A stretch of 37,784 nucleotides of DNA, from contig JAENWK010000012.1 of NCBI GenBank assembly GCA_016650045.1, forward strand, positions 1 through 37,784. The letters are read 5' to 3'. A program made the translations under genes and the position numbers. Positions 31,544 through 34,991 of the stretch are shown piece after piece; position 1 is the stretch's first letter, and each line of letters opens with the position of its first letter. The stretch is from Eubacteriaceae bacterium. Its GTDB lineage: Bacteria; Bacillota; Clostridia; Eubacteriales; Eubacteriaceae. Under the pieces are notes generated by a model. That model did no database searches, was not told the origin of the DNA, and saw only the letters and a program-made list of their open reading frames with translations.

Positions 31544-32017
31544 ATGAAATGTCCATTTTGTGCATTTGATGAAAGTCGGGTTGTGGATTCCCGTCCCACC
31601 GAGGATGGTAATATGATCCGAAGACGCAGGGAGTGCTCTCAATGTAATAAACGCTTCACAACCTATGAACGCGTTGAGAATATCCCGCTCATCGTTGTAA
31701 AAAAAGGCGGGCAGCGGACATCCTTTGATAAGAACAAAATTTTCAATGGAATGATTAAGGCCTGTGAAAAACGGCCTGTTCCCATTGATAATATTAAAAA
31801 TTTGGTGGATGCTCTTGAAAGAAATCTATATCAAAGTGAAATGAAAGAAGTTCCTTCAGCCTATATCGGGGAACAGGTCATGGCGGCGTTAAAAACATTA
31901 GATGAGGTTGCCTATGTTCGGTTTGCTTCGGTGTATCGTCAGTTTAAAGACGTGGCATCGTTTATGGATGAACTGGAACGGTTAATTTCGGAAAAACAGA
32001 CTGAAGGGGATTTATGA
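31544..32017 (+). CDS. nrdR: Ribonucleotide reductase repressor NrdR
   Basis: 157-aa repressor of ribonucleotide reductase genes. N-terminal zinc ribbon Cys3, Cys6, Cys31 and Cys34, and Arg-Arg-Arg-Glu between them, bind NrdR boxes. An ATP-cone domain (about 46-136) senses ATP and dATP. It lies 6 bp after ftsZ without a clear ribosome site of its own, so it is probably coupled to ftsZ. Overlaps the next gene by 4 nt (ATGA). Confidence 0.97.
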   Translation: MKCPFCAFDESRVVDSRPTEDGNMIRRRRECSQCNKRFTTYERVENIPLIVVKKGGQRTSFDKNKIFNGMIKACEKRPVPIDNIKNLVDALERNLYQSEMKEVPSAYIGEQVMAALKTLDEVAYVRFASVYRQFKDVASFMDELERLISEKQTEGDL

Positions 32018-32556
32018 AACTATTTGAAAAAACCCTAAAGACAAAAGAAATTTTTAATGGCCGCATCCTAAATCTCCGTGTGGATGATGTTGCTTTGCCA
32101 GATGGAACTCTCTCAAAAAGGGAGATTATCACCCATGTGGGCGCAGTGGCAGTATTAGCAATCATGGATCATCAGATGCTTTTTGTAAATCAATATCGAA
32201 TTGCCGTTCAAAAAGTATTAACTGAGATTCCAGCAGGGCTGATAGATCCCGGTGAATCGACAATGGAAGCGGCCATACGAGAATGCCGTGAAGAAATTGG
32301 ACAGCGGCCACTTAATTTGTTTCAACTTGGAGAGTTTCTTCCAACCCCAGGATATTGCTCGGAAAAAATAACCCTATTTTGTGCAACGGAGTTTGACTAC
32401 GATCCCAAAAAAGAAGATCCTGAAGAATTTATAAGAGTAATGAAAATTCCAGTACGAACGGCCAGGGCTCTTTTTGTTAACGGTCTTTTTATTGATGGGA
32501 AAACAGCAGCAACCTTGGGATATTATTTTTCTCTTACTTCTAAGGTTTTGTTGTAG
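32014..32556 (+). CDS. nudF: NUDIX hydrolase, ADP-ribose pyrophosphatase type
   Basis: 180-aa hydrolase of nucleoside diphosphate derivatives. The Nudix box occupies 75-97, with Gly75, Glu81, Arg89-Glu90, Glu93-Glu94 and Gly96 all matching the consensus. The preceding Glu-Ile-Pro-Ala-Gly and a later Pro-Thr-Pro-Gly-Tyr point to the ADP-ribose subgroup. Last gene before the strong terminator at 32578. It may dispose of ADP-ribose; a link with the distant sirtuin or ADP-ribosyltransferase is not shown. Confidence 0.9.
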   Translation: MKLFEKTLKTKEIFNGRILNLRVDDVALPDGTLSKREIITHVGAVAVLAIMDHQMLFVNQYRIAVQKVLTEIPAGLIDPGESTMEAAIRECREEIGQRPLNLFQLGEFLPTPGYCSEKITLFCATEFDYDPKKEDPEEFIRVMKIPVRTARALFVNGLFIDGKTAATLGYYFSLTSKVLL

Positions 32557-32577: not shown

Positions 32578-32632
32578 AAAAATAGATGGTTTATTTCAAT
32601 GCAGAGCATTAAAATAAATCATCTATTTTGTG
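32578..32632 (+). terminator. Long hairpin terminator after the NUDIX gene
   Basis: AAAATAGATGGTTTATTT (32579-32596) pairs with AAATAAATCATCTATTTT (one G-T pair), extended inside by AATGC/GCATT round a 3-nt loop. It ends in a T-rich stretch and marks the end of the dcw-nrdR-nudF block. Confidence 0.8.
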
Positions 32633-32731
32633 TTATTCTTTAGGGAGAGTTAAGGGTGGTTAGAACAAAAACGAAGTGAAATGGTCGTAGATAATTGCGA
32701 AAGTATCATGAGCTTGCTGTCTGTTTACATG

Positions 32732-32798
32732 AAACAATTTTTCCACTATACGTCGTACACTTCTTTGAACTGTTCGCCTATACGTTATAAAATTGTTT
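32732..32798 (+). promoter_or_regulatory. Inverted repeat and promoter candidate before the membrane protease operon
   Basis: AAACAATTTT (32732-32741) and AAAATTGTTT (32789-32798) are perfect inverted repeats 47 bp apart. Between them CTATACGT occurs twice as a direct repeat (about 32745 and 32778). TTGAAC (32765-32770) and TAAAAT (32788-32793), 17 bp apart, form a promoter candidate whose -10 overlaps the right arm. This arrangement suits control by a DNA-binding protein. Confidence 0.4.
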
Positions 32799-32880
32799 GT
32801 GAAAACTGACATCAGAGCAATTTACGATTGTGTCTATGAATTTCGCAATGATCGATGAATGATTAATAAAGGAGACAAAA

Positions 32881-32973
32881 ATGAGAAAAAACTATATTCT
32901 TTCGGAACACGACATGGTAATTTGGGGATTGGACAAAAAGATCGGATACCAGGGTGACTTAGCTAATGTTTGA
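32881..32973 (+). CDS. 30-aa leader ORF coupled to the membrane protease gene
   Basis: A very good Shine-Dalgarno (AAAGGAG, 7 nt before) and an ATG at 32881 encode 30 aa, Met-Arg-Lys-Asn-Tyr-Ile-Leu to Leu-Ala-Asn-Val. The stop TGA at 32971-32973 lies 8 bp past the protease ATG at 32966, so ribosomes ending here can restart on the protease, which has no strong site of its own. Charged, no membrane span, no family recognised. Most likely a translated coupling ORF; a functional small protein is possible. Confidence 0.55.
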   Translation: MRKNYILSEHDMVIWGLDKKIGYQGDLANV

Positions 32974-33607
32974 TTTTTCAGCTGCGCATTTTTATTACCT
33001 ATTGTTGAGCCTTCCTGGCATTTTGATTGCCATTACCTTTCACGAAATGGCCCATGGTTATGCGGCTGAAGCCATGGGTGACCCCACGGCAAAAAATGCC
33101 GGGCGTTTAACCCTTAATCCTTTAAAGCATATTGATCCCTTAGGGTTTATTTCCATGGTGCTTTTCAGTTTTGGATGGGCAAAGCCGGTGCCCATTAACC
33201 CCATGAATTTTAAGGACCAAAAAAAGGGAACGATTATTGTTTCCCTGGCAGGGGTAGCAACAAATTTACTCTTGGCATTTATTGGGATGGCAGTATTTAA
33301 AGCAATCGTCCCTATGCAAAATATGACACTGAATTTAGTTTTTGAATCCATTTATTTGTATAATATCATATTTGCAGTGTTTAATATTATTCCCATACCC
33401 CCACTGGATGGTTCCCGGATACTGATGGTCTTTCTTCCGCCAAAGGCACTGCCGGCTTATTTCAAATACCAGCGTTATGGGATGATTCTCATTTTTGTTT
33501 TAGCATTTACAGGCATCTTATGGATCATTATCGGTCCAGCTATTTATGGCATTGAGAGTCTGTTCAACAATATAATATCACCAATTTTTAGTCTGTTTGG
33601 ACTTTAA
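32966..33607 (+). CDS. Site-2-type membrane metalloprotease (M50 family)
   Basis: 213-aa polytopic membrane protein. The zinc motif His26-Glu-x-x-His30 is inside the first span, and the third ligand Asp148 lies in Pro-Pro-Leu-Asp-Gly-Ser. About five spans, no PDZ domain: the short Firmicute/archaeal subgroup often encoded before scpA-scpB, as here. Such proteases cut within membranes; the substrate is unknown. Starts inside the 30-aa ORF and lies 3 bp before scpA. Confidence 0.93.
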   Translation: MFDFSAAHFYYLLLSLPGILIAITFHEMAHGYAAEAMGDPTAKNAGRLTLNPLKHIDPLGFISMVLFSFGWAKPVPINPMNFKDQKKGTIIVSLAGVATNLLLAFIGMAVFKAIVPMQNMTLNLVFESIYLYNIIFAVFNIIPIPPLDGSRILMVFLPPKALPAYFKYQRYGMILIFVLAFTGILWIIIGPAIYGIESLFNNIISPIFSLFGL

Positions 33608-33610
33608 ACC

Positions 33611-34345
33611 ATGGGGTATGCAGTCAGCCTTGAAAGTTTTGAAGGCCCCCTGGATCTGCTGATTCATTTAATTCAAAAGAATAAAATTGATATTTACGAT
33701 ATTCCCATTGCCGAAATTACCAAACAGTATTTATTGCAAATTAAGGATTGGAAAAAGCTGGATATGGATGTGGCCAGTGATTTTATTGTGATGGCCGCCA
33801 GGCTTCTGGAAATAAAATCCAGAATGCTTTTACCCATCACCGAAGAGGAAACCGAAGATGAGGAAAGTCTTCAGGCCAGACTTGTTCGGCAGTTGGTTGA
33901 ATACAAAATATTCAAAGAGATCAGCGTTTTTTTAGGAACAAGAGAACAATGGGAGCTTTGTGCTATTTACAGAGATCCGGAATATATTTTTCAAAATGAG
34001 GATACAGAACCCATTGTTCTTGATCCAATGGCATTAATGCAAAGCTTCCAAAGCCTATTGTTGTTAAAGGAAGAGGAAATAGAAGCCATTGTTCCCCCAC
34101 AAAAAATTGTTCGAGATCTCTTTAATGTGGAAGAAAAAATAACTGAAATTATGGAGGCCTTAATCCGATGCGGTGAGGCGGGTTTGAGCTTTTCTGAATT
34201 GCTCCATCCGGAGATTTCAAGAGAAGAGGTGGTGGTTACCCTGATGGCTTTACTTGAAATGGTTAAAACCAGTGGGCTGCGGCTGGAACAAAATCGGGTT
34301 TTTATTGATTTTCAAATTAAAAGGGAGGAAGAAATCCATGGATAG
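33611..34345 (+). CDS. scpA: Segregation and condensation protein A (ScpA)
   Basis: 244-aa kleisin subunit of the SMC-ScpA-ScpB condensin. The N-terminal Phe-Glu-Gly-Pro-Leu-Asp-Leu-Leu (9-16) that contacts the SMC neck and the C-terminal winged helix are both present, with an acidic middle that binds the ScpB dimer. Its 3' end overlaps scpB by 8 nt. Confidence 0.97.
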   Translation: MGYAVSLESFEGPLDLLIHLIQKNKIDIYDIPIAEITKQYLLQIKDWKKLDMDVASDFIVMAARLLEIKSRMLLPITEEETEDEESLQARLVRQLVEYKIFKEISVFLGTREQWELCAIYRDPEYIFQNEDTEPIVLDPMALMQSFQSLLLLKEEEIEAIVPPQKIVRDLFNVEEKITEIMEALIRCGEAGLSFSELLHPEISREEVVVTLMALLEMVKTSGLRLEQNRVFIDFQIKREEEIHG

Positions 34346-34991
34346 TGATGATCTTACCGGTATTTTAGAGGGAATTCTCTTTGGTGCGGGAGAAGCGATT
34401 GGGTTAAATGACCTTTGTCAATGTTTGAATAAAACCCCATCGGAAATCCGCTTTTCCATGAAAATTCTATCTCAGGATTTTCAGTCCAAGGCAAGGGGAA
34501 TTCGGCTGATTCAAATCAAAGATACTTATCAACTTTCAACAAAGCCCGAGTATTACGAGTATATTAAGGAAATCACAAAGCATAAGCAAAAAACAGGCTT
34601 GTCACGGGCAGCATTAGAAACGCTTGCCATCGTCGCCTATCAACAGCCAGTAACCCGAATTGCCATTGATGAGATTCGGGGGGTGGGTTCAAGCAGTGCC
34701 ATTCAACGTTTGTTGGATCGCGGGCTTATCTGTGATGGTGGTCGCCTTGAAGCTCCGGGACGTCCTATATTGTATAAAACAACCCAGGAATTTTTAAAGG
34801 CGGTGGGTTTTGTTAACCTTAAGGAACTGCCTGAATACGAAGTTTTTTCCCAGGGTATACAAGAAATGTTTGATTTGAATACCACTGAAGACAGCAGGTC
34901 ACGACCAGAGTCGAAACAAGAAGAACTGTTTTCAAGCGTCCTTGAACAGGCCATTGGAGAAGAAAAAAAACAGGAAGAGGAAAGTCATTGA
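34338..34991 (+). CDS. scpB: Segregation and condensation protein B (ScpB)
   Basis: 217-aa winged-helix partner of ScpA. Typical segments are an N-terminal Leu-Glu-Gly-Ile-Leu-Phe and Ala-Leu-Glu-Thr-Leu-Ala-Ile-Val-Ala-Tyr-Gln-Gln-Pro-Val-Thr-Arg, then Ile-Arg-Gly-Val. The C-terminal 35 residues are acidic and low complexity. The ATG at 34338 has GGGAGG upstream. An open frame continues upstream inside scpA to 34254 but gives an unrelated N-terminus, so it is rejected. Overlaps the next gene by 4 nt. Confidence 0.96.
   Translation: MDSDDLTGILEGILFGAGEAIGLNDLCQCLNKTPSEIRFSMKILSQDFQSKARGIRLIQIKDTYQLSTKPEYYEYIKEITKHKQKTGLSRAALETLAIVAYQQPVTRIAIDEIRGVGSSSAIQRLLDRGLICDGGRLEAPGRPILYKTTQEFLKAVGFVNLKELPEYEVFSQGIQEMFDLNTTEDSRSRPESKQEELFSSVLEQAIGEEKKQEEESH

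Follow-up and report, generated by a model that had tools for sequence, protein, structure and literature searches.

The window analysed here, a stretch of 37,784 nucleotides, is contig C171 of an Acetobacterium genome assembled into 217 contigs. The assembly comprises 2.23 Mb at 98.9% completeness, and the genomes of its congeners are larger (2.7–4.1 Mb). The locus of interest is read from the forward strand. It opens with an open reading frame at 32014–32556, 5' of the leader, whose product we take from its sequence to be a NUDIX-type hydrolase. A terminator-like hairpin with 24-bp arms that are 92% complementary follows at 32579–32629, and is also seen in the leaders of congeners. Lying between the NUDIX gene and the leader, it is strikingly alike across the congener leaders L003–L020, more so than expected of an ordinary terminator. 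The leader itself contains a MITE-like element (32688–32855), one copy of a dispersed palindromic repeat, and a 30-aa ORF (32881–32973), probably a remnant of lysA, with the Shine-Dalgarno sequence AAAGGAG at 32868–32874. The downstream genes encode a membrane protease of the M50 (site-2-protease) type (32966–33607; Pfam PF02163, E 4.5e-11), scpA (33611–34345, an ORF call) and scpB (open frame 34254–34991, with the true start probably later); the names of the last two are taken from the original prediction.

That prediction described the region as a regulated leader in which spaced inverted repeats, a doubled CTATACGT, a promoter in a repeat arm and a coupled small ORF control the protease-scpAB operon. 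The inverted repeats are real: perfect 10-bp arms (AAACAATTTT / AAAATTGTTT) at 32732–32741 and 32789–32798 form an inner hairpin spanning 32732–32798, and enclose both copies of CTATACGT, at 32746–32753 and 32778–32785. A second pair (18 bp, 83%) at 32685–32702 and 32841–32858 takes in the terminal inverted repeats of the element, TAGATAATTGCGAAA on the left (32688–32702) and TTTCGCAATGATCGA on the right (32841–32855). The 168-bp copy folds with −41.1 kcal/mol (z = −3.2, with 1 of 200 shuffles as good); this fold, together with the dispersal of the repeat in at least 32 matches in its own genome, places the repeats beyond chance. The ORF also exists as described, with AAAGGAG 6 nt 5' of its ATG and an 8-nt overlap with the protease ATG (ATGTTTGA). 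The promoter fared less well: TTGAAC-17-TAAAAT is matched at 9 of 12 positions at 32765–32793, but the match is weak, since 18 such matches occur in 5 kb against 12.2 ± 3.2 in shuffled sequence. As a property of the element the promoter was discarded, because only 2 of 28 scorable copies reach 9/12.

We searched 19 Acetobacterium genomes with the segment 32560–32972 and recovered at least 32 matches in the window's genome and up to at least 40 in others; among the matches listed, almost all fall within about 32688–32889. All 19 genomes contain some match, which in a few of them covers no more of the query than the hairpin or the ORF. A 13-base core of the element is present in 13 of the 19 Acetobacterium genomes but absent from all 42 genomes examined from elsewhere in the family and order, and genome G009 holds 70 exact copies of this core. 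Twenty 20-kb stretches of G009 (400 kb), searched with a profile, contain 12 copies, which extrapolates to roughly 100–120 copies in that genome. The consensus of 40 aligned copies, the window's included, is 169 bases long, starts with TAGGTAATTGCGAAA, ends with TTTCGCAATTACCTA and folds as a single hairpin of −71.2 kcal/mol (z −9.1, 0 of 200 shuffles as good). The element is thus a genus-restricted, hairpin-shaped, MITE-like sequence of which nearly the whole length is one palindrome, and this palindrome includes the doubled CTATACGT and the nested arms in its interior. It has the terminal inverted repeats and the dispersal in many copies that characterize MITEs, and 20 of the 46 two-ended copies (counting L135, a contig-end artefact without a right flank) are bordered by target-site duplications of at least 9 bp with at most one mismatch. 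These duplications are 9–12 bp long. The window copy, which has no recognisable target duplication, is decayed and old.

Several copies depart from the consensus in length. A longer variant (L124, L125, L127, L196–L198, L204, L205) carries an extra middle segment of roughly 60–90 bp, which in some of these copies begins like GCGAACCATAAGAAATTCGC. Very short elements of 52–70 bp with the same 13–15 bp ends also occur (L193, L194, L195, L200–L202), some of them adjoining a Shine-Dalgarno sequence (L193).

At protease loci the element was found in the window only, and not at the other 29 examined, 18 of them from congeners. This bears on the reading of the repeats as a regulator-binding or RNA-switch region controlling the protease-scpAB operon. 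The window copy is a long hairpin directly before a ribosome site, and some effect on expression is possible for that reason. However, the element is missing from this locus in 18 of 18 congeners, the same repeat stands at many unrelated genes, and the leader gave no Rfam family at the gathering score, a permissive search yielding sub-gathering matches only. On the Rfam result a riboswitch or other known RNA was rejected as a candidate. We consider dedicated control of the operon by these repeats most improbable, and reject the operator reading because the element is lacking at the protease loci of the congeners: the repeats are a copy of a dispersed mobile element. Absence from relatives, by which the original prediction was to be judged, thus applies to the repeats (present in 0 of 18 congeners).

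An autonomous relative of the element was located through a 13-bp end pattern. Genome G012 (locus L206) contains two copies of a 1760-bp insertion sequence (IS) with perfect duplications of 11–12 bp and a 485-aa transposase. Its left end is identical to that of the MITE over 15 bases; the locus has no match to the element profile, the interiors looked unrelated, and only the 15-bp ends are common to both. The duplications of the IS overall are 10–15 bp long. The transposase contains the domains DUF772 (PF05598, 40.1 bits) and DDE_Tnp_1 (PF01609, 23.9 bits), both above cut-off. The best NCBIfam model is IS1182, and we call the IS IS1182-related only, because its 61.5 bits stand against a cut-off of 270. 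With the IS1182 family, which includes IS1272, it shares the two domains, a length of about 1.7 kb and terminal inverted repeats; the family score sets it apart. Of the 19 Acetobacterium genomes, 10 yield a transposase match at E 0.001, and the window's own is not among them. Close relatives (E 1e-110) were found in 8 of 391 genomes drawn from the class, two of them Acetobacterium, in 3 of 398 drawn from the phylum, and on one plasmid each from Roseburia sp. 831b and Butyrivibrio proteoclasticus B316; among these genomes, G552 has 16 matches. The agreement in terminal repeat, target duplications and choice of target suggests kinship between the two, and the MITE was probably moved by this IS1182-related family. 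A different element of about 146 bp at L209:2161, which shares this left end and has what looks like an 11-bp duplication, lies directly 5' of TTTGGAGG, which suggests a second MITE family.

The insertion sites of the MITE follow a pattern. In the G009 sample, which is unbiased for counting insertion sites, a called gene starts 23–30 nt from the border of 11 of the 12 copies and is directed away from the copy. GGAG or GAGG lies 12–19 nt from an intact end in 43 of 62 copies with distinct flanks, in 35 of the 46 two-ended copies and in 9 of the 12 copies of the G009 sample, against 4.8% at random positions of that sample. A stricter count of GGAG only, which used right borders one base too far inside, gave 41 of 62 copies against a background of 2.9%. 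The spacing is often exact: GAG begins 6 nt past the duplication in 15 of the 20 MITE copies with a duplication (L135 again among the 20). The palindromic MITE occurs in both orientations relative to the motif. The window copy faces the Shine-Dalgarno sequence of the 30-aa ORF; counted from the element end, GGAG starts after 15 nt and GAG after 16, and this distance is the spacing of the family.

The IS follows the same rule, which was formed on Acetobacterium before other genomes were examined. We collected 42 distinct right flanks of the IS and set aside three tandem junctions, leaving 39 insertions from several clostridial lineages. GGAG or GAGG is found 12–23 nt past the right end in 35 of these 39, a range widened after the G552 flanks had been seen, the motif windows and end patterns having been fixed after part of the flanks was known. 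The motif is present in 13 of 15 Acetobacterium insertions and 22 of 24 others, and at the left end, where that end was found, in 0 of 39. The background elsewhere in the same IS loci is 4.8% (binomial p 7e-42). A perfect duplication of at least 9 bp borders 33 of the non-tandem copies, and in 29 of these GAG begins exactly 6 nt past it, the exceptions being L254, L256, L268 and L270. The four sites without the motif are L254, L256, L265 and L270, of which L254 and L256 have only AAGGG/AAGGA. The orientation is fixed: the same end always faces the motif, 35 to 0. Since the duplication varies between 10 and 15 bp while the 6 nt stay constant, we infer that the cut on the motif side is the measured one. 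On plasmid pCY360 of B. proteoclasticus an annotated gene, BPR_RS16800, supplies both the motif and the start codon, and it begins at L278:552, 26 nt from the IS end. Tandem IS arrays at one address (L243, L291/L292, L278), with units split by the same target duplication, suggest that one address is used repeatedly.

Such a distribution might also arise if the elements inserted anywhere in AT-rich DNA and only the copies between a promoter and a Shine-Dalgarno sequence were tolerated: most sites do precede a start codon, and insertions there spare the coding sequence. Against survivor bias of this kind stand a GAG spacing that is exact to the nucleotide in 29 of 33 IS copies despite duplications of 10 to 15 bp, and the 35 to 0 orientation. 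It is further opposed by two G014 insertions inside open frames, L244 (FVLK) and L245 (FKVM), at the GGAGG motifs GGAGGTGATCC and GGGAGGAGG. Here the frame runs through the duplicated residues on both sides and the spacing is the usual one, in the absence of a start codon. The in-gene sites favour recognition of a DNA motif over selection for gene starts, and the exact 6 nt, kept at these two sites as well, is likewise better fitted by target recognition. We regard survivor bias as very unlikely. Even less can be said for a conserved 5' UTR RNA that spreads by improving mRNA stability and resembles the IS by coincidence. The strong consensus hairpin directly 5' of ribosome sites would suit such an RNA, but target duplications, the common 15-bp ends and a spacing identical to that of the autonomous IS make it very improbable.

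The second component of the leader, the 30-aa ORF, appears to have a separate origin. In Eubacterium-type genera (L044–L047) the NUDIX and protease genes flank lysA, which has its own Shine-Dalgarno sequence, and the ORF occupies this syntenic position in the window. In L023 lysA ends in an overlap with the protease ATG (ATGTTTAA), just as the window ORF does. Acetobacterium has no close lysA: the best matches, about 30% identical, occur in 17 of 19 genomes, and one of them, when scanned, proved to be a LysA-type decarboxylase with a score under the NCBIfam cut-off. The window's genome has no LysA match at E 0.001. The window ORF starts with MRKNYILSEHDMV, and LysA of the order-level relative L169 with MTKNYIFSNHDTV; over its first 13 codons the ORF resembles the LysA N-terminus with a score of 50, a value that none of 20000 shuffles and none of 2790 control N-terminal windows attained. 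The margin is modest, because the best control scored 44 and the best shuffle 47. The L009 ORF scores 44 against the same N-terminus (3 of 20000 shuffles), that of L014 is weakly similar (117 of 3000 shuffles), and those of L003, L013, L019 and L020 are at chance, so that the likeness is clear in two of the seven ORFs compared. An origin from the C-terminus of lysA was dropped, as the window ORF aligns to the LysA N-terminus from the first residue. From these comparisons the 30-aa ORF is most likely a lysA remnant.

The recurrence of the position, the Shine-Dalgarno sequence and the stop overlap would suit, instead of a remnant, an ORF encoding a functional leader peptide or small protein that belongs to the protease operon: in 9 of 18 congeners there is an ORF of at least 22 codons with a good Shine-Dalgarno sequence whose stop overlaps or abuts the start of the protease gene. 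L015, a tenth congener, has a 3-codon ORF only, and in the remaining 8 the ORF is missing and the protease gene has its own GAGG. The peptide, however, is not conserved. Summed over two close pairs, the codon differences in the ORF are non-synonymous in 9 cases and synonymous in 4; for the protease gene the corresponding counts are 4 and 34 (Fisher p 1.2e-4), and by this comparison (9:4 against 4:34) the peptide is under no detectable constraint, contrary to what a regulatory leader peptide would show. With the loss in 8 congeners and the LysA-like N-terminus in 2 of 7 ORFs, a functional peptide is unlikely. Translational coupling between the ORF and the protease is possible where the ORF survives, and is plausible there because ORF and overlap are found in 9 of 18 congeners and an independent protease GAGG in 8. 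The arrangement is like that of translationally coupled upstream ORFs in its good Shine-Dalgarno sequence and its stop overlapping the next start; it differs in that the peptide is unconserved and the ORF is missing in 8 of 18 congeners and probably a gene remnant.

The leader therefore very likely consists of two unrelated things that adjoin, a MITE copy and a lysA-remnant ORF, an assessment we make jointly with the explanation that the MITE sits at the Shine-Dalgarno sequence of the remnant through an IS family with Shine-Dalgarno-addressed insertion. The transposase would recognise a Shine-Dalgarno-like GAGG in DNA, and would cut one strand 6 nt before GAG and the other 10–15 nt further upstream, as the duplications indicate. 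Joining would leave one copy of the duplicated target between the element end and the Shine-Dalgarno sequence. The autonomous IS would always turn the same end to the motif, and the palindromic MITE could insert either way. The motif may be read by the transposase itself or with the help of anti-Shine-Dalgarno RNA. Since coding sequence and ribosome site would usually be spared, insertion of this kind would amount to a safe-haven strategy. As to the ORF, it would have kept the lysA start, Shine-Dalgarno sequence and first codons, with a lysA-style stop overlap with the protease, the rest of lysA having been lost in an ancestor of Acetobacterium. Its protein function would be gone; where it persists, in some species, it would at most let ribosomes enter for translation of the protease, and its Shine-Dalgarno sequence would have been the address for the window MITE. 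Mobilization of the MITE by the IS family, direct recognition of DNA and any effect on expression are proposed here from sequence comparison. Several results count against the explanation: the window copy shows no target duplication and its genome no transposase match, MITE and IS agree in their 15-bp ends only, four IS sites are without the motif, the spacing is exact in 15 and not all of the 20 MITE copies, and four of the seven ORFs resemble LysA no more than chance.

The element shares with bacterial MITEs its small size, the lack of a transposase gene, terminal inverted repeats, duplications, many copies and ends in common with an IS, and differs from them in being nearly all one palindrome and in its fixed spacing to ribosome-binding sites. 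Tn7 is a site-directed transposon that uses glmS as its address. IS607 and IStrons insert at GG-containing sites (PMC4227781). In these systems, too, a host sequence serves as the address; here, in contrast, the address is a generic translation-start motif at many genes, and not one gene or a dinucleotide. Some described members of the IS1182 family target palindromes, and IS1272 replaces inverted repeats (PMC5678879), whereas the present IS targets a Shine-Dalgarno motif with a 10–15 bp duplication. The portion of the literature covered by our search contains no description of a Shine-Dalgarno- or GGAGG-targeted insertion sequence or of an Acetobacterium MITE, and the portion consulted of an IS survey (PMC9208149) mentions neither Shine-Dalgarno sequences nor ribosomes nor start codons.

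The regulated leader is thus partly supported: the idea finds no support for the repeats, and the coupling alone survives, for the ORF. The MITE explains recurrent hairpins in the 5' leaders of Acetobacterium, which could otherwise be mistaken for riboswitches or operators. The main result of interest is Shine-Dalgarno-addressed transposition, of which the part of the literature searched holds no description. We think it likely that a family of clostridial DDE transposons uses the Shine-Dalgarno sequence as an address, inserting 6 nt from GAGG in a fixed orientation, re-inserting in tandem and, in some genomes, providing roughly a hundred genes with a long MITE hairpin directly 5' of the ribosome site. 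If this is true, mobile DNA would have a new way of sparing its host, by reading the signal at which translation starts, and such a transposon may serve to place cassettes immediately 5' of ribosome sites.
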